From contig NZ_FQVT01000015.1 in the NCBI RefSeq assembly GCF_900129445.1, positions 1-64,000 on the forward strand: a stretch of 64,000 bases of DNA, read 5' to 3'. Of this stretch, positions 38,706-46,763 are shown piece after piece (the stretch's first letter is position 1; each line of letters starts with the position of its first letter). The notes beneath the pieces were generated by a model that was given only the letters and a program-made list of their open reading frames with translations, did not search any database and was not told the DNA's origin. A program made the translations under genes and the position numbers. The stretch is from Salegentibacter echinorum. Lineage in GTDB: Bacteria; Bacteroidota; Bacteroidia; Flavobacteriales; Flavobacteriaceae.

Positions 38706-39842
38706 TTATATACCTTTTCTAAAAAAGGATTTTATAAAATCGAAGCTGTAGAGCGAAAACATAATCTTTAGATCTTCAGGAATAGAGGTTTCTTCATCTA
38801 AATACCTAAATATATCCTGAGGTGAGTTTTTGCTATAAAACTTACTAAAAATTTCTTCTCCTTTGTGATTATTTTGGGCGAGCACATCCAGAAAAATAGC
38901 ATCGTATTTCCTGAATCTTTTATTAATTAGGTTTTCACCAGGCAAATTGCCACTTTTAATATTCTCTATAATCCTGGTGATACGCTTTTCTGTATTTTTA
39001 AAGGAATATCCCGTTGAGGCTTTTACCCATCCGCCGCCGGTGCCTATTTTTGTAATCTGCAGGGTGTTTTCCTCTTCAAAAGGGAAATCGGTCATGGGAA
39101 TGACGCCCGTTTCGGTACTTTCAATGTTGTAATCATCGGTTTTTAGAATCTTCTGAAAGTACTTTTCCAGTAAATCGTCATACACCTTGTCTTCAGTTAA
39201 AAATGGTGTAAAAAATGTATGTTCTACTAAAGCTTTATTTTTGGAAACCGGAAGTATATAAGTAAAGCTAGTAGCATTCTCATATTTTATTCGGTAATCC
39301 ATCATGGTGAAAACTTCAGGATTAAAAATGGGATCTTTGGTAGTGACCTCCAAACCTTTAAAATGTTGAAAGATTGTAGTGTGTTTTTTGCTTTCTAAAT
39401 AGGCAGGATCTACCCGGCTGTCAAAAAAATGCGTGGCACCGTAGTTTCCATTTCTGCCTTTAGCTTTAAGGGTAACCTGGTCTATTTCTGTAATTTCATC
39501 GGTTATAAATACGATATCACCAGATTCTTCCAATTCTTTTTTTAGCTGTTGGTGATAGTCTGCAGCTTTGATCATTTTATAGGAATAAGGTGATAAATTT
39601 AGATCTACTTTTTCTTCAGCAGCATAAAAATCCCCATTTTTCCAGGATTTGGAAACAAGTTTATCCCACTTTCCCGTGCCTTTTTCCCAAAAACACCAGG
39701 TTTTTATAGGCACTGAAAAATCTGAATCTATAATTGCAATTTTTTTTCCTTTAAAAAAAACATCCCGGCTAAGTTGCCGGGCGAGTTGTAGGCCAGCTAG
39801 CCCTCCGCCTATGATTACGTAAAAATATGTGGGTCCTAACAT
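38706..39842 (-). CDS. crtY: Lycopene beta-cyclase
   Basis: FAD-dependent lycopene cyclase of 378 residues, which forms the beta rings of beta-carotene. The N-terminal dinucleotide motif is VIIGGGLAGLQLARQL. The family hallmarks KTWCFWEKG (cyclase motif), YSYKMIKA, and IPMTDFPFEEENTLQIT with GTGGGWVKASTGYSF are in place. It is the last gene of the crt operon, reading crtI-crtB-crtZ-crtY, and ends about 15 bases from the convergent Mrr gene. A 121-base gap separates it from crtZ. Confidence 0.93.
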   Translation of the reverse strand: MLGPTYFYVIIGGGLAGLQLARQLSRDVFFKGKKIAIIDSDFSVPIKTWCFWEKGTGKWDKLVSKSWKNGDFYAAEEKVDLNLSPYSYKMIKAADYHQQLKKELEESGDIVFITDEITEIDQVTLKAKGRNGNYGATHFFDSRVDPAYLESKKHTTIFQHFKGLEVTTKDPIFNPEVFTMMDYRIKYENATSFTYILPVSKNKALVEHTFFTPFLTEDKVYDDLLEKYFQKILKTDDYNIESTETGVIPMTDFPFEEENTLQITKIGTGGGWVKASTGYSFKNTEKRITRIIENIKSGNLPGENLINKRFRKYDAIFLDVLAQNNHKGEEIFSKFYSKNSPQDIFRYLDEETSIPEDLKIMFSLYSFDFIKSFFRKGI

Positions 39843-39963: not shown

Positions 39964-40431
39964 TTATTTTTTCGTGGGCTTAGATTCTTTAAAATATTTA
40001 AAAGGTACGAAGAGCATTCCAAAACATTCTCCATCATCTTTCCCTAAATGTTTATGGTGCATTTTGTGTGCCCTTCTTATACCTTTCGCATACCGGTTAT
40101 TGGCATTTCTAAATAATTTAAAGCGTTGATGTATAAAAATATCGTGCACACTAAAATATGCAATTCCATAAGCTAAAATACCTAAACCAATGGGTAATCC
40201 TATCCATAAGATATCATAGCGCCATAGCAGGAAAAAACCAATACTTACAAAGGCATAAAAGATAAAGAAAAAATCATTTCTTTCCCACCAATGGCTGTGA
40301 TCTTTGTGGTGATGGTCTTTGTGTAAGCTCCACAAAAAACCATGCATAATATATTTATGCGTAAACCAGGCCATACCTTCCATAGCGGCAAAAGTACCCA
40401 GAAAAACCAGAATCCATATTAATATGTTCAT
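39964..40431 (-). CDS. crtZ: Beta-carotene hydroxylase
   Basis: Membrane di-iron hydroxylase of 155 residues that converts beta-carotene to zeaxanthin. Four histidine clusters that bind iron are visible: His25-x4-His30 (HKYIMH), HKDHHHKDH at 37-45, HDIFIHQ at 96-101 and HKMHHKH at 122-128. Membrane segments lie between them. One base separates it from crtB. With crtY it implies that zeaxanthin is the pathway's end product, as is common in marine Flavobacteriaceae. Confidence 0.95.
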   Translation of the reverse strand: MNILIWILVFLGTFAAMEGMAWFTHKYIMHGFLWSLHKDHHHKDHSHWWERNDFFFIFYAFVSIGFFLLWRYDILWIGLPIGLGILAYGIAYFSVHDIFIHQRFKLFRNANNRYAKGIRRAHKMHHKHLGKDDGECFGMLFVPFKYFKESKPTKK

Positions 40432-40432
40432 T

Positions 40433-41272
40433 TCAAATAAATTTTAGTCTATAAGAAATATAAGATTTTGCAAGCAAGCCTGCTTTTTGATAATCGGAAA
40501 CCCTAATTCTACTATTCCTAATTTCTAAAGAAGGTACTTTTTTTAACTTGTGCAATAATTTCCTGTAATAAATATATGCTGTATAAACTCCAAATTTGGC
40601 TTCAACAGGTAAATGTGCAATTCCGCTTAAACCCTCTTTAAAATCTTCTTCAATCTCGGCTATAATTTTTTGCTTACTTACTTCATCTAATCGTTCCAGG
40701 TTTGTACCTGGAAAATAGCTTCGACTAAGTTCTTCAAAATCGGCCTTTAAATCTCTTAGAAAGTTAACTTTTTGGAAAGCAGAACCCAGGCGCATCGCCG
40801 ATGCTTTTAAAGCTTCGTATTTGTCACGATTCCCGTTTACAAAAACCTTTAAACACATTAAGCCCACCACGTCTGCGCTTCCATAAATGTATTCCTTATA
40901 TTCGGCCACACTAAGATAATCAGATTTATGCAAATCTAATCGCATACTCTTCATAAAAGAACGGTAAAGTGCTTCATCAATATTATACTTATGTACCGTT
41001 TCCTGAAAAGCATTTAGAATTGGGTTTAAACTTATCTTATTTTCAACAGCCTTGTAAAGATCGGTTTCAAAATCGTTAAAAAGTTGCTCTTTATTATAAT
41101 GATGAAAGGTATCTACAATCTCATCGGCCAGGCGCACAAAACCATAAATATTATAAATATCCTTGCGAATAGACGGGGCAAGCATTCTAGTCGCTGTAGA
41201 AAACGAAGTGCTGTAATGGTGGGTTACCACTTTGCTGCAACTTCTCGAGACCTGATCGAAAATAGATTTCAT
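40433..41272 (-). CDS. crtB: Phytoene synthase
   Basis: Head-to-head prenyltransferase of 279 residues joining two geranylgeranyl diphosphates into phytoene, the first committed carotenoid step. The two Asp-rich metal motifs are LADEIVDTFH (about 48-57) and NFLRDLKADFEE (about 170-180). HYSTSFSTATRML at the N-terminus matches the substrate-binding segment. It overlaps crtI by 4 bases (ATGA), so translation is coupled. Confidence 0.95.
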   Translation of the reverse strand: MKSIFDQVSRSCSKVVTHHYSTSFSTATRMLAPSIRKDIYNIYGFVRLADEIVDTFHHYNKEQLFNDFETDLYKAVENKISLNPILNAFQETVHKYNIDEALYRSFMKSMRLDLHKSDYLSVAEYKEYIYGSADVVGLMCLKVFVNGNRDKYEALKASAMRLGSAFQKVNFLRDLKADFEELSRSYFPGTNLERLDEVSKQKIIAEIEEDFKEGLSGIAHLPVEAKFGVYTAYIYYRKLLHKLKKVPSLEIRNSRIRVSDYQKAGLLAKSYISYRLKFI

Positions 41273-42735
41273 AGCTTAATTTCTTTTTGAATTAACCCCG
41301 CAGCGAGCTTTCCCGAGATTAGGGAAGGAGGGACTCCGGGACCGGGGACACTTAGCTGCCCGGTAAAAAATAACTTGTGTACTTTCTTACTTTTTAGCTT
41401 AGGCCGTAAAAAGGCAGTTTGTAAAAGCGTGTTTGCTAAACCATAAGCATTACCCTTGTAGGAATTGTACGCTTCTTTAAAATCTTTTACACAAAAAGAT
41501 TCTTTAAACAGTATCCTATCGCTAACTGTTTGATTGGTAAGATTTTCAAAACGCGTGATGATCTTCTGAAAATACTTTTCCCTCAATGCTGGCGTATCTT
41601 CTAAATTTGGTGCAAGTGGAATTAGAAATATCCCAGCTTCTTTACCTTTGGGGGCAACTGAAGCATCTGTTACTGAAGGAAAGCTTGCGTAAAAAAGCGG
41701 ATCATCTGGCCAGCTTGCATCATCGTAAATTGCCCTGGCGTGTGCTTCAAAATTAGAATCGAAGAAAAGTGTGTGATGCGATACATCTTGAATTTTTCTA
41801 TCGAAACCTACAAAAAACAATAAGGCCGATGGGGCAAAGGTCTTTTGCTCCCAGTAAGATTCTTTATACTGTTTTTTATAAGCCGGTAAAAGTGTTTCGG
41901 TATGGTGATAATCGGCACCGCTAAGAATATAATCGGCAGTTATTTTATCATCGTTAACCATCATACCCGTGACAGCGTCATTTTCAACGAAGATTTTAGA
42001 AACCGCTGCATTAGTTTGAAATGCTACACCTAAAGATCTTGCTAAGGTTTCCATAGCTTCAATAACTTTGTACATTCCGCCATTGGGGTGCCAGGTGCCC
42101 AAACCAAAATCGGCATAATTCATAAAACTATAGAAAGCGGGTGTATTGCTTGCTTTTGCACCAAGAAACAAAACCGGAAATTCCAGGATTTGCGCCAGCT
42201 TGGGATTGTCGAACTCTTTTCTAACTTCTTTAGAAATAGTGCTAAAAAATTGTCCTATTTTTTTGGCAGTAGTGGGCGTGATCAATTCCATGGGGGATAC
42301 GCCGGGCCTGTACACTAAATCTTTAATAGCGATGTTGTAATTATCTTTAGCTTCAGCTATAAAGCGTTTTAATTTTAAAGAACTTCCCGGTTCTTCCGCT
42401 TCAAACGCAGCACAAATTTTCTCTAAGCTGTCACCTATGGTAATACTATCTCCTTTTCCGAAGAAAACTTTATAGGCAGGATCTAATTTCTCCAACTCAT
42501 AATAATCTGAAGGTTTTTTACCAAAATCTGCAAAAAACCGTTCAAAAACATCTGGCATCCAATACCAGGTAGGACCTATATCAAAACAAAATCCGTCTTT
42601 CTTTAATTGTCGCGCACGACCACCAATCTCTGAATTTTTTTCATAAATCTTTACGCCATGACCATCTTTAGCCAGGTAACAGGCAGCTGCAAGTGAAGCA
42701 AAACCAGATCCAATAATAGCAATATTTTTTTTCAT
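41269..42735 (-). CDS. crtI: Phytoene desaturase
   Basis: FAD-dependent CrtI-type desaturase of 488 residues that introduces the four double bonds turning phytoene into lycopene. The N-terminal FAD-binding motif is IAIIGSGFASLAAACYLAK, followed by GGRARQLKKDGFCFDIGPTW. The C-terminal FAD/quinone motif is FFTGQLSVPGPGVPPSLISG. The length is typical. It is the second gene after the MerR regulator (6-base gap) and overlaps crtB by 4 bases. Confidence 0.95.
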   Translation of the reverse strand: MKKNIAIIGSGFASLAAACYLAKDGHGVKIYEKNSEIGGRARQLKKDGFCFDIGPTWYWMPDVFERFFADFGKKPSDYYELEKLDPAYKVFFGKGDSITIGDSLEKICAAFEAEEPGSSLKLKRFIAEAKDNYNIAIKDLVYRPGVSPMELITPTTAKKIGQFFSTISKEVRKEFDNPKLAQILEFPVLFLGAKASNTPAFYSFMNYADFGLGTWHPNGGMYKVIEAMETLARSLGVAFQTNAAVSKIFVENDAVTGMMVNDDKITADYILSGADYHHTETLLPAYKKQYKESYWEQKTFAPSALLFFVGFDRKIQDVSHHTLFFDSNFEAHARAIYDDASWPDDPLFYASFPSVTDASVAPKGKEAGIFLIPLAPNLEDTPALREKYFQKIITRFENLTNQTVSDRILFKESFCVKDFKEAYNSYKGNAYGLANTLLQTAFLRPKLKSKKVHKLFFTGQLSVPGPGVPPSLISGKLAAGLIQKEIKL

Positions 42736-42741
42736 AAATTT

Positions 42742-43635
42742 TTATAGCTGACTTACAAATTGATTTAGATTAGTATGTGTAGTGACGAAATCTGGTAACC
42801 TTTTATGCTCCAGGCTCCTCAATTTATGACCAAATAGCAAAAGCTTGTAATCGTTGTTATCACCAATCTGTCTTTTAAAATCATTTATATAATCTTCAAC
42901 ATTCTCTGGTCTGGTAGTAAAGTAACTAACAAAATTTATCTTTTCACGCCTCTCCAGGAGGTAGCTAAGATCTGTTACAGGTAAATTGCCCCCCAGGTAA
43001 ATAGTTTGATTCCCGTTTAAAATTAATTCATAATATAGATAAATTATCCCAAGGTCATGAATCTCATTTTCCGGTAGGAATAATACGTAAAGATTTTTAG
43101 TGGTTGCCGGTAGCTTTTCTTTAGCTTCAGCAATATTCAAATACATTTTTTGTTTAATAAGATCTACAATGTAATGCTCATGAATAGGCTTAATGGTATC
43201 GGTTTGCCATAGAAATCCCACTTTTTCGAGTAGAGGCATAAAAACCTGGGAAAAGATTTCACGAAAGCTTTTGTCCTTAATCAAGTCGTTGTAAGTCTTG
43301 TTAAATAATTCTTCATCAAAATTTAACATCGCTAATTGAAAGGCGTTTTGCGCCCTGTTTTCCCGACTGGAACTGGCAGAGATATTTTGCACCATATCAC
43401 AAATTTCCTCATCGCTTAATTTGGAAATCCTTGAGATTTTATAACCATTTTCGTTGAGAAAGGCCACATTTAGAATCTTCTGAAGATTGGAATTATCATA
43501 AGTCCTAATATTCGTAGAGGTTCGGTTAGGAGTTAAAATTTTGTATCTTTTCTCCCAAATCCTTATGGTATGTGCCTTGATTCCGCTTAAATTTTCAAGG
43601 TCTTTTATACTGAAATTTTGTTTTATTTGTTCCAT
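42742..43635 (-). CDS. MerR-type regulator with B12-binding domain, CarH-like photoreceptor
   Basis: Transcription factor of 297 residues. A MerR winged helix (about 8-75, FSIKDLENLSGIKAHTIRIW) is followed by a helical linker and a cobalamin-binding Rossmann domain. The four-helix module contains Trp143 and Glu153-His154, an exact Wx9EH motif that caps adenosylcobalamin in CarH. The B12 motif reads Glu191-x-His193-x-x-Gly196 (ExHxxG), with His193 as the lower cobalt ligand. In CarA/CarH proteins, dark AdoCbl tetramers repress carotenoid genes and light releases them. It heads the crtI-crtB-crtZ-crtY operon, so it probably also controls itself. Light response is inferred from the motifs. Confidence 0.9.
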   Translation of the reverse strand: MEQIKQNFSIKDLENLSGIKAHTIRIWEKRYKILTPNRTSTNIRTYDNSNLQKILNVAFLNENGYKISRISKLSDEEICDMVQNISASSSRENRAQNAFQLAMLNFDEELFNKTYNDLIKDKSFREIFSQVFMPLLEKVGFLWQTDTIKPIHEHYIVDLIKQKMYLNIAEAKEKLPATTKNLYVLFLPENEIHDLGIIYLYYELILNGNQTIYLGGNLPVTDLSYLLERREKINFVSYFTTRPENVEDYINDFKRQIGDNNDYKLLLFGHKLRSLEHKRLPDFVTTHTNLNQFVSQL

Positions 43636-43666
43636 AGGTTGGTTATGATAGTCAAATCTAATTAAA

Positions 43667-43729
43667 GTTAAACATTTTATAATCTATTTAAATGTTAAAA
43701 TGTTTAATGGACTAGTTAAAAAGTTAAAC
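43667..43729. promoter_or_regulatory. Candidate operator for the CarH-like regulator
   Basis: The 104-base divergent region holds several copies of a GTTAAAC-type half-site: GTTAAACATT (43667-43676), the inverted AAATGTTTAA (43698-43707), GTTAAA at 43715 and GTTAAAC at 43723. The first two form an inverted repeat around a 21-base centre, and the last two a direct repeat 8 bases apart. Positions suit control of both the crt operon and the SDR/aldehyde dehydrogenase genes. Confidence 0.5.
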
Positions 43730-43739
43730 AACATAAATT

Positions 43740-44543
43740 ATGACTAAAATCTCATCTAAACTTGTGCTTATTACCGGGGGAGCTTCTGGCATAGGAAAGC
43801 TACTGAGCAAGAAAGTACTGGAGCTCGGCGGGAAATTGGTGATATGGGATATTGATAAAGCGGGCCTGGAACAAACTATTAATGAATTTGAGTCGTGGGG
43901 GGAGGTGCAGGGTTATGTTGTGGATATTGGCGATACCGGGCGCGTAAAAGAAATGGCCAGGAAAGTGGAAAATGAGGTTGGAAGTATAGATGTTCTTATT
44001 AATAATGCGGGCATAGTTTACGGAGGATATTTCCACGAGTTTTCTTCAGAAGAAATTAATAAAACTATGATGGTAAACAGCGTAGCTCCCATGCAACTCA
44101 CACTTGCTTTTTTACCTGAAATGATAAAAAGAAAGTCTGGTCATATTTGTAACATAACCTCTTTGGCGGGTTTGGTTTCCAATCCCAAATTGGCAGTGTA
44201 TGCCGGTAGCAAATGGGCTACCACCGGTTGGTCTGATAGTTTACGACTGGAAATGGAGCAGCTTAAAACAGGGGTTAAGGTGAGTACTATAACCCCTTAT
44301 TACATCAATACCGGGATGTTTCGCGGGGTGAAATCCAGAATACCTATTTTAGATCAACATAAAGTGGTAGAGAAAATCATAAAAGCTATAGAAAAGAACC
44401 AAATTCATTTGAGTTTACCTTTTAGTATGCGTTTTATAAGATTTGCACAGGGGCTTTTCCCAATTTGGTTTTATGATTGGTTTGTAGGTCAAATTATAGG
44501 GGTTTATAAGACTATGGATAATTTTAAAGGAAGAAATAATTAG
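43740..44543 (+). CDS. Short-chain dehydrogenase/reductase
   Basis: Classical SDR of 267 residues. It has the nucleotide motif TGGASGIGKLL, the NNAG motif (LINNAGIVYGG), the catalytic serine in NITSLAG and YAGSKWA (YxxxK). The C-terminal ~60 residues are hydrophobic and lysine-rich, as in retinol- or steroid-dehydrogenase-like SDRs. The substrate is unknown. It diverges from the crt regulator and is followed by an aldehyde dehydrogenase after 2 bases, so oxidation of an alcohol to an aldehyde and acid, possibly of a carotenoid-derived or lipid substrate, is plausible but unproven. Confidence 0.88.
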   Translation: MTKISSKLVLITGGASGIGKLLSKKVLELGGKLVIWDIDKAGLEQTINEFESWGEVQGYVVDIGDTGRVKEMARKVENEVGSIDVLINNAGIVYGGYFHEFSSEEINKTMMVNSVAPMQLTLAFLPEMIKRKSGHICNITSLAGLVSNPKLAVYAGSKWATTGWSDSLRLEMEQLKTGVKVSTITPYYINTGMFRGVKSRIPILDQHKVVEKIIKAIEKNQIHLSLPFSMRFIRFAQGLFPIWFYDWFVGQIIGVYKTMDNFKGRNN

Positions 44544-44545
44544 CG

Positions 44546-45925
44546 ATGGAAGAGACATCAATTACTCAAATTTCAGGTTATTTTAAGGCGCAACGAGATT
44601 TTTTTGCCAGCCATAAAACTAAAGAACTGGATTTTAGAAAGGAGCAACTTAAAAAGTTGAAAAATGCTATTCTTAAGTACGAAAACGAAATCAATGAGGC
44701 TTTATGGAAGGATTTGCATAAATCTAAGGAAGAAGCTTTTCTTACAGAAACAAGTTTGCTTATAGAAGAAATTTCCTACCACTTAAAAAATTTAAAAACC
44801 TGGACAAAACCAGAAAAAGTGGGAACACCTTTGCAATTAAAGCCTTCCCGTTCTAAAATATTAAAAGAACCACTGGGGGTAGCCCTAATTATTTCACCGT
44901 GGAACTATCCCTTCCAATTAGCAATAAACCCACTAATTGGAGCGATTTCTGCAGGTTGTTGCGCGATAGTAAAACCTTCTCCAGATACTCCCAATGTAGC
45001 TTTGGTGATAGAAAAAATGATTACTGAAATTTTTGATTCTTCCTATGTTAAAGTGATGCAGGGAGACAAAGAGGTGAATCAGGAATTGTTTAAACATCCT
45101 TTTGATATCATGTTCTTTACGGGCAGCCCGCGGGTTGGTAAAATTGTGATGAAGGCCGCCGCAGAACATCTAAGTCGGGTTGTTTTAGAACTAGGGGGAA
45201 AGAGTCCATGCGTGGTAGATAAATCGGCCAACCTAAAAATTGCCGGGAAACGCATTGCCTGGGGAAAGATTATTAATGCGGGACAAACTTGTATTGCACC
45301 AGATTATTTGTTGGTACACCGGGAAGTTAAAGCTGAATTACTAAAGGAAATCAAGAACTCTTTTGAGCAGTTCCTGGGAGAGGATATACAAGACAGTAAA
45401 TATTACGGTCGTATTGTGAATGCAGAAGCCATGGAGCGACTAAAAACTTATCTTGATACCGAAGCTTATTACGGCGGAAAAACGGATGCTAAAAACAAAT
45501 ATATAGCGCCTGCAATTTTAGATAAAGTAAAAGCGGAAGATAAAATAATGCAAGATGAAATCTTTGGGCCAATTTTACCGGTGATGGAATTTACCGAATT
45601 AGAGGAAGCAATTAGCTACATTAATAATAATGAAAAACCGCTGGCTTTATATTACTTCGGAAATAACAAAACGGCAAACAAAGTCTTAAACCAAACCAGT
45701 TCTGGCGGAGCTTGTATTAACGATACTTTGCTACACGTGGCTAACCATAAATTACCCTTTGGTGGCGTTGGCAATAGCGGAATGGGGAAATACCACGGTA
45801 AAGAAAGTTTTTTGGCCTTTACACATGAAAGAGGGGTAATGAGTTCTTCGACAAAGTTGGACATCCCTGTAAAATATCCGCCTTATAAATTTTTTAGCCT
45901 GATAAAGAAAATTATTGGAAAATAA
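44546..45925 (+). CDS. Aldehyde dehydrogenase family protein
   Basis: NAD(P)-dependent aldehyde dehydrogenase of 459 residues, resembling the class 3 and fatty-aldehyde group. The catalytic cysteine lies in NAGQTCIAPDY, the general-base glutamate in VVLELGGKSPCVV and the cofactor loop in FTGSPRVGKIV. The C-terminal KLPFGGVGNSGMGKYHG is typical of class 3 enzymes that act on long-chain or aromatic aldehydes. The last residues (PPYKFFSLIKKIIGK) are amphipathic and could bind membranes. It is in an operon with the SDR gene and is opposite the crt operon. Confidence 0.92.
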   Translation: MEETSITQISGYFKAQRDFFASHKTKELDFRKEQLKKLKNAILKYENEINEALWKDLHKSKEEAFLTETSLLIEEISYHLKNLKTWTKPEKVGTPLQLKPSRSKILKEPLGVALIISPWNYPFQLAINPLIGAISAGCCAIVKPSPDTPNVALVIEKMITEIFDSSYVKVMQGDKEVNQELFKHPFDIMFFTGSPRVGKIVMKAAAEHLSRVVLELGGKSPCVVDKSANLKIAGKRIAWGKIINAGQTCIAPDYLLVHREVKAELLKEIKNSFEQFLGEDIQDSKYYGRIVNAEAMERLKTYLDTEAYYGGKTDAKNKYIAPAILDKVKAEDKIMQDEIFGPILPVMEFTELEEAISYINNNEKPLALYYFGNNKTANKVLNQTSSGGACINDTLLHVANHKLPFGGVGNSGMGKYHGKESFLAFTHERGVMSSSTKLDIPVKYPPYKFFSLIKKIIGK

Positions 45926-46011
45926 AGAGGTTTAGAAAACTTAAAAATTGAATAAGGAAAATTCTATAAAGAGATAATAAGTTTATGTAAATTAATTATA
46001 AAGTAAGAAAG

Positions 46012-46095
46012 TGCCCGGAGCGGGAGTCGAACCCGCACGCCCTAATGGACACATGGCCCTCAACCATGCCTGTCTACCAGTTCCAGCACCCGGGC
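46012..46095 (-). tRNA. tRNA-Leu (anticodon GAG)
   Basis: 84-base tRNA. The acceptor GCCCGGG pairs with TCCGGGC, then discriminator A. Anticodon stem CATGG/CCATG closes the loop TTGAGGG, so the anticodon is GAG. A long variable arm marks a class II tRNA, and the T-arm GCGGG TTCGACT CCCGC is perfect. CCA is not encoded in full. Confidence 0.93.
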
Positions 46096-46443: not shown

Positions 46444-46444
46444 G

Positions 46445-46517
46445 TGATCTGGCTGGGGCTCGAACCCAGGACCCTCTCCTTAAAAGGGAGATGCTCTACC
46501 AACTGAGCTACCAGATC
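46445..46517 (-). tRNA. tRNA-Lys (anticodon TTT), copy 1
   Basis: 73-base tRNA. Acceptor GATCTGG pairs with CCAGATC, anticodon stem TCTCC/GGAGA closes the loop CTTTTAA giving anticodon TTT, and the T-arm is CTGGG TTCGAGC CCCAG. Identical in sequence to the copy at 46691-46763. Confidence 0.94.
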
Positions 46518-46553: not shown

Positions 46554-46690
46554 TTGTGATCTGGCTGGTCCCGAGCACTCGGGATTCTCGCCCATCCATC
46601 TCTGTGATCTGGCTGGGGCTTCCTTCGACTTCGCCTATCGGCTTCGCTCAGGATCAACTTCTCGCCTAACACAATAAGAACTTAATTTTG
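46554..46690. repeat. tRNA-Lys 3'-end remnant array, right part
   Basis: Two more units between the tRNA-Lys copies: TGTGATCTGGCTGG with the palindrome TCCCGAGCACTCGGGA (46554 onward), and TGTGATCTGGCTGGGG with the CTTCGACTTCGCC/GGCTTCGCTCAG hairpin (46602 onward). Confidence 0.8.
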
Positions 46691-46763
46691 TGATCTGGCT
46701 GGGGCTCGAACCCAGGACCCTCTCCTTAAAAGGGAGATGCTCTACCAACTGAGCTACCAGATC
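46691..46763 (-). tRNA. tRNA-Lys (anticodon TTT), copy 2
   Basis: 73-base tRNA, identical to copy 1. It is first in the direction of transcription. Confidence 0.94.

Follow-up and report, generated by a model that had tools for sequence, protein, structure and literature searches.

A CarH-like variant subfamily and its predicted light regulon in the Flavobacteriaceae

The window, by which we mean the whole 64,000-nucleotide stretch of Salegentibacter echinorum DNA that was analysed, carries a carH-like gene followed by carotenoid genes on its reverse strand (Table 1). An earlier note on this DNA had described a MerR-family gene as the first of a crt operon, and this is what we observed: crtI follows after 6 bp, and then crtB, a crtZ-like gene and crtY, where the name crtZ-like is our assumption from the position and the His motifs of that gene. 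The extent that had been claimed for the regulator, 42742-43739, does contain it, but the open reading frame stops at 43635 and the remainder (43636-43739) is the intergenic region between carH and a divergent short-chain dehydrogenase (SDR) gene. The suggestion that this SDR gene and the aldehyde dehydrogenase (ALDH) gene behind it share the control region found support, in that 9 bp lie between a predicted operator dyad and the start codon of SDR. The pathway had been called a zeaxanthin pathway, which is plausible, but CrtI scores above the NCBIfam threshold for a bifunctional phytoene desaturase/3,4-desaturase and the end product may therefore exceed zeaxanthin alone. The SDR-ALDH pair adjoins carH in 14 of the 15 genomes of the window's genus; among the 81 loci besides the window, which come mostly from other genera, it does so in one (L035, same genus). 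On that count we rejected a family-wide link and regarded the pair as a genus-level addition. Upstream of carH, 59 of 82 loci have a tRNA-Leu(gag) gene at a distance of up to 3.5 kb, frequently together with tRNA-Lys, and in 44 of 82 it lies within 400 nt; because SDR-ALDH sits between the tRNA and carH in the window and in L035, it looks like a later insertion.

Table 1. Features of the locus, with one further operon of the same genome; positions are those of the window unless a contig is given.
Feature	Position	Strand	Basis
crtY, lycopene cyclase	38706..39842	-	PF05834
crtZ-like beta-carotene hydroxylase (presumed)	39964..40431	-	no Pfam/NCBIfam match; position kept in 79/81 loci
crtB, phytoene synthase	40433..41272	-	PF00494
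crtI, phytoene desaturase, begins 6 bp past carH	41269..42735	-	NF058655 718.5 bits, cut-off 640
carH-like gene, MerR DNA-binding and helical/Rossmann cobalamin domain, 297 aa	42742..43635	-	ORF, Pfam, model, structure searches
ExHxxG codons (residues 191-196), His193 the predicted lower cobalt ligand	43048..43065	-	regex; orthologue conservation
Wx9EH codons (residues 143-154), predicted cap over adenosyl group	43174..43209	-	regex; orthologue conservation
TAGATTTG, predicted -7 element (TAnnTTTG) of carH-crt operon	43653..43660	-	same position in genus sequences compared
Extra half-site TGTTTAAC, 6 bp upstream of carH -7 box	43667..43674	-	sequence scan
Predicted operator dyad TGTTTAAT-N14-GTTAAACA, between carH and SDR	43701..43730	.	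comparison with relatives, gap scan
Divergent SDR, start codon 9 bp past dyad	43740..44543	+	ORF, Pfam, genus comparison
ALDH, 2 bp after SDR stop	44546..45925	+	Pfam, NCBIfam
tRNA-Leu(gag), beyond ALDH	46011-46095		
tRNA-Lys(ttt), beyond ALDH	46444-46517		
tRNA-Lys(ttt), beyond ALDH	46690-46763		
TetR-family (TetR_C_23) and ABC1/UbiB-like kinase operon under dyad	L135:6633-8633		

What kind of regulator does this gene encode? It is present as a single copy in the genome, and a contig search for related loci gave one match, in a Gillisia MAG (57% identity), which is the nearest named relative. Pfam recognised MerR_1 (E 8.3e-14) and B12-binding_2 (E 2.6e-9) in the 297-aa product, and regex searches of the protein returned a single WQTDTIKPIHEH at residues 143-154 and a single EIHDLG at 191-196, so that the six residues named earlier (Trp143, Glu153, His154, Glu191, His193 and Gly196) were all correct. 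An AlphaFold2 model made with 87 sequences had a mean pLDDT of 87.4. Its closest solved structures were those of T. thermophilus CarH, the best with Z 19.9 and an rmsd of 2.6 over 193 residues of the cobalamin domain, and the group as a whole with Z 19-20 and about 2.6 over about 193 residues; Foldseek ranked full-length CarH at the top (E 3.2e-14), and a profile search found T. thermophilus CarH at E 2.3e-21. The likeness of a predicted fold alone is no proof of function. The CarH-type assignment is supported, as to fold and ligand residues, by the orthologue alignment, the model and the structure searches; the observation in the earlier note holds, and the interpretation built around it is supported in part.

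The two motifs had been attributed to both CarH and CarA. This is right for CarH. CarA of Myxococcus xanthus resembles the window protein in having a MerR and a B12 domain and in repressing carotenoid genes, but according to the accessible text of PMC8156234 it lacks Wx9EH, which is the published reason for its B12 independence; a CarA-like classification was rejected because the window protein has this motif. The nearest known system is CarH/LitR of T. thermophilus (PDB 5C8D, 5C8E, 3WHP), which shares the domain order, the fold, Wx9EH, ExHxxG and the link to crt genes, with 17-19% identity in structural alignments. In the available part of the same source, the CarH signature is given as Wx9EH plus ExHx2Gx41SxV/Tx22-27GG. 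We found the MerR-type DNA-binding domain, the helical/Rossmann cobalamin domain, Wx9EH and ExHx2G, the two motifs both in the protein and in its orthologues. The other half of the B12 motif departs from the signature, with x40, SYF and 29 residues to Gly269-His270. Gly269 is kept in 82 of 82 sequences; the window protein has His after it, and most of the others have Arg, Lys, His or Gln; the second Gly of GG is replaced across nearly the whole family. The position of His132, which lies beside the motif Trp in T. thermophilus CarH and is a cobalt ligand in the light state (PMC8156234, accessible text), is occupied by Gln in 80 of 82 (Gln144 here).

Published signatures and profiles gave a similar picture. 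All 87 proteins of our alignment match the NCBIfam CarH equivalog NF052513 at E 0.001 or better, and the window protein scores 57.4 bits against its cut-off of 400. The Pfam Rossmann B12 domain PF02310 gave no match to the window protein and matched 9 of the 87. CtMerR of Chloracidobacterium (PDB 8JBS/8JBT; Z 18.9-19.0) is a CarH-like domain whose response to light has been tested. It carries GxxW/EH/GxxH/GxxxP, the SignatureFinder signature for light-responsive cobalamin domains (PMC11796333, as far as its available text goes). The window clade keeps GxxW (81/81), EH (79/81) and GxxxP (through Gly215-Pro219), but it mostly has Asn in GxxH (Asn190 here; Gly in 1/82), so that a CtMerR-type signature would miss it. 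In view of the motif departures, the Gln, the Asn and the NCBIfam score, we filed the protein as a CarH-like variant and not as a strict member.

Matches at E 0.001 occurred in 167 of 199 Flavobacteriaceae genomes (198 genera). In 11 of these the sole match was a divergent relative, and in six it was partial, mostly to the MerR domain; these six weak, partial-coverage matches were set aside. By sequence, then, about 150 of the 199 genomes, and most genera, appear to hold a carH orthologue. We aligned 81 orthologues (L005 and 80 fetched loci), most of which came from the better-scoring end of the 167 matching genomes, so that weaker relatives are under-represented. In this set, Trp143, Glu153, Glu191 and His193 are present in 81 of 81, His154 in 79 (the exceptions are L044 and L049) and Gly196 in 80; loss of the cobalamin residues in close homologues had been named as evidence against a CarH-type protein, and the residues proved to be retained in the 81 orthologues. 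In 80 of the 81 loci besides the window, crtI comes after the MerR gene, and 79 have the order crtI-crtB-crtZ there; L059 falls short because its contig ends and L114 because a gene is relocated. The alignment of 87 proteins omits seven of 94: four whose start codon is not ATG (L066, L104, L105, L117), a contig-end fragment placed with the divergent set (L115) and two longer proteins removed by hand (L077, L111). In 11 genomes the place of the main clade is taken by a second, divergent CarH-like clade (L116-L126; 31-37% identity over the matched part), and a fasciclin gene is nearby in 9 of the 12 loci of the divergent set.

Where might such a protein act? From the relatives we derived the consensus TGTTTAA-N16-TTAAACA, which is a new and likely operator. 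In the 82 carH loci (1.05 Mb) there were 56 such dyads at one mismatch or fewer, against 1 for reversed arms: the carH-crtI junction had 41 of them, the region upstream of carH had 12, and three lay elsewhere, two of these at L114 promoters, those of SRPBCC and TetR. When gaps of 0-40 were scanned, gap 16 appeared in 50 of 82 loci and every other gap in at most four. A chance palindrome in AT-rich DNA was rejected on the reversed-arm counts (1 versus 56 here, 1 versus 52 in the genus), the gap scan and the shuffles. The arrangement differs from that of CarH, in that the half-sites conserved here are inverted and 23 bp apart, whereas the CarH operator is made of tandem 11-bp direct repeats (PMC8156234, accessible text).

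The sequence TAnnTTTG is the Bacteroidota -7 element, and it lies inside 39 of the 41 junction dyads. In 56 loci, TTTGTTTA stands exactly 25 nt before the carH start; the gap-16 sequence there reads NTGAACA in 56 of 56, with ATG in 53, and gives a two-mismatch second arm that spans the start codon. A junction dyad, an upstream dyad or such a start-codon box is present in 77 of 82 loci, and outside the window's genus the dyads mostly cover either the promoter and start codon of carH or the promoter of crtI. In ten loci including the window, 72-96 bp separate the beginning of the dyad from the carH start. This places it upstream of the -7 box, and repression of carH there would therefore need more than the dyad. 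The window dyad adjoins the SDR start codon and not the carH -7 box, a role that we take TAGATTTG to have. At the position of the extra half-site, ten genus relatives have TGTTTAAT, which is missing from four others. Codon 2 of carH, where it encodes Asn, is AAC in 56 of 56 start-codon-box loci, against 494 of 1315 Asn codons elsewhere in the genes, an argument that is weakened because relatedness inflates the signal and because carH genes outside this class share AAC (12 of 14 Asn cases, many of them with imperfect boxes as judged by eye).

The dyad also marks other promoters. Exactly two exact copies occur in the window's genome, one between carH and SDR and the other at the promoter of the TetR-ABC1-kinase operon, and a one-mismatch copy begins 34 nt upstream of an SRPBCC-SDR-photolyase operon (L240). 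Across 15 genomes of the genus we counted 52 exact dyads, against 1 for the reversed control, and 51 of the 52 fell in four promoter regions: 15 at TetR-ABC1, 13 at carH/SDR, 12 at SRPBCC-photolyase (exact in 12 of the 15 genomes, with a divergent DUF2911 gene alongside and, in G209, no intervening SDR) and 11 at a fasciclin lipoprotein, in most cases beside a lipocalin-like gene that is transcribed divergently. In one distant genome (G166, L114), SRPBCC, SDR, photolyase and carH stand in one row beside TetR-ABC1, and both promoters have dyads (0 and 1 mismatch). Since the operator also precedes a photolyase operon, the light role gains independent support, and the dyad common to the carotenoid and photolyase operons suggests one switch for several sun-protection genes, both in the window's genome and in its relatives.

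Some further observations concern these promoters. The fasciclin gene is under the dyad in 11 of the 15 genus genomes (L217, L219, L222, L223, L225, L226, L228-L230, L234, L152); in the window's genome we found no long fasciclin and only a shorter relative (47%). The sole exact genus dyad outside the four targets (G203, L153:2006) precedes a short membrane-protein-like reading frame, possibly DoxX-like by eye. The G166 cluster (L114:9429-11992) adds genes that by eye are 6-pyruvoyl-tetrahydropterin-synthase-like, GTP cyclohydrolase-like and a second cryptochrome/photolyase-like gene.

We propose that the protein represents a variant CarH-like subfamily with a predicted light regulon, and consider it probable that the carH-like gene encodes a photoreceptor-repressor. 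In the dark, its B12 domain would contain adenosylcobalamin (AdoCbl), which would keep the protein oligomeric, and the oligomer, seated on inverted TGTTTAA half-sites 23 bp apart, would block the promoters. Light would break the cobalt-carbon bond, the oligomer would dissociate and the promoters would open. The targets in the window's genome would be carH-crtIBZY, which would be autoregulated, SDR-ALDH, TetR-ABC1 kinase and SRPBCC-SDR-photolyase, with fasciclin added in 11 of 15 genus genomes. Binding of AdoCbl by the window protein is suggested by its sequence, and release by light by the CarH residues together with the presence of photolyase among the predicted targets. Two AdoCbl-dependent enzymes, methylmalonyl-CoA mutase and an IcmF-like mutase, are encoded in the genome, as is MetH, so that the cofactor is probably available. 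Repression is indicated by the position of the dyad: blocking fits because the junction and start-codon dyads overlap the -7 box or the start codon and because the register varies; at TetR, the dyad sits just upstream of the -7 box.

Could the protein bind cobalamin and yet report B12 supply or redox state instead of light, so that carotenoid and repair genes follow B12? The lost GG, Gln144 and Asn190 set it apart from the light-tested CarH proteins and would allow this, but the adenosyl-capping Trp-Glu-His set of CarH is kept in nearly all orthologues and the regulon includes photolyase, a light-requiring enzyme; we regard such a role as unlikely. A little less likely still is a protein that is B12-independent, as CarA is, and is acted on by a separate light-sensing protein. 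For this there are the precedents of CarA (PMC8156234, accessible text) and of class II LitR, reported as the effector of a LOV photoreceptor (PMC9758184, in the part available), and the Rossmann domain has diverged. Against it, Wx9EH is retained, unlike in CarA, and His193 is present in 81 of 81. The earlier statement that no other photoreceptor gene is nearby holds for the sole class covered, photolyase homologues: a comparison with the genome's own photolyase found none in the window.

It is also improbable, slightly more so, that the photoreceptor-repressor that we favour is instead an activator like many MerR proteins. MerR proteins repress or activate from sites within promoters (PMC8156234, available text), and the ten loci with the dyad upstream of the carH -7 box would suit activation. 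The position of the dyad relative to TAnnTTTG, however, varies from upstream of it (TetR) to around it (crtI, 39 of 41) to through the start codon (56 carH promoters), which argues for a repressor, because steric repression tolerates such variation and activation by twisting the spacer should not.

Which protein binds the dyad? TetR proteins often autoregulate, and the exact dyad precedes TetR-ABC1 in 15 of 15 genus genomes; because a TetR protein could thus be its own regulator, we checked the co-occurrence of dyad and carH on 40 TetR loci, including one fragment (G147) that was left unscored. The dyad (at most one mismatch, gap 16 or 17) lay upstream of TetR in 25 of 26 carH-positive genomes, the exception being G001, against a chance of about 0.4% per 160-nt region in shuffles. 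Of seven TetR loci with only a divergent CarH-like protein, four had it, as TGTCTAA/TTAGACA with both arms changed (G038, G040), with one arm changed (G066) or unchanged (G025), and G007, G014 and G168 did not. Among the four scorable TetR loci without a CarH-like gene, only G079 (81% complete, no carH found) had the dyad, which was absent from G059, G158 and G180; it was likewise absent from the TetR loci of two genomes of other families (G217, G214). In turn, we found no TetR homologue in four carH genomes, and all four keep the operator at carH or crtI, as a start-codon box in G011 (L092), G018 (L048) and G019 (L097) and as a one-mismatch junction dyad in G021 (L110). Finally, 10 of 11 divergent CarH-like genes have a TGTYTAA/TTARACA dyad within 250 nt upstream (0.16 of 11 expected by shuffles), six of which extend into the start of the gene itself. 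The co-occurrence, the TetR-less genomes and the shifted divergent dyad therefore favour the MerR protein, and we infer on strong grounds that the carH-like protein binds the dyad. That the dyad is instead the operator of a TetR protein that controls both itself and carH is the least probable of the four alternatives.

Light-dependent carotenoid synthesis has already been reported in a flavobacterium. In Chryseobacterium lacus, light induces carotenogenesis, with induction of the crt cluster and a lipocalin gene, and its authors found no car/lit operon genes and left the regulator unknown (PMC7064467, accessible text). A MerR-family gene standing first in a crt cluster has been noted in Nonlabens spongiae; in the available part of that source (PMC11855829) the gene is merely named, and we found there no proposal of a sensing function or an operator. 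We found no CarH regulon or dyad operator for the Flavobacteriaceae among the literature matches listed, which include few subscription papers and leave absence unproven. Searches that joined CarH with flavobacteria or Bacteroidota gave no paper, others gave one review (PMC8123684), and no regulator of CarH-like kind was found in the accessible portions of PMC5932025 and PMC5241685. MliR (PMC9478572) was dropped as a possible relative, its main text containing neither 'cobalamin' nor 'crtI'.

A broader reading, to which we would give somewhat less than an even chance as a whole, is that most genera of the family hold a distinct branch of B12 photoreceptors that current signatures miss. Its members would have their own photochemistry, with Gln for the His that takes up cobalt once photolysis has occurred and an altered pocket for the nucleotide tail. 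They would also have their own DNA code, with inverted half-sites two turns apart that in many genomes extend from the -7 box across the start codon and limit the choice of codon 2 in carH, and a sun-protection regulon of carotenoids, photolyase, ABC1 kinase and, in some of the family, fasciclin.

For one flavobacterium with light-induced carotenoid synthesis the regulator had been left open (PMC7064467, accessible text). The present analysis predicts, from sequence alone and for a large bacterial family, a candidate sensor together with the DNA address that it would use and the genes that it would control. If the prediction is true, it would add a large group of candidate green-light switches that lie outside current signature searches. 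Many bacteria must obtain B12 from others, and, if the proposal is true, the protection of these bacteria from sunlight would hinge on this vitamin.
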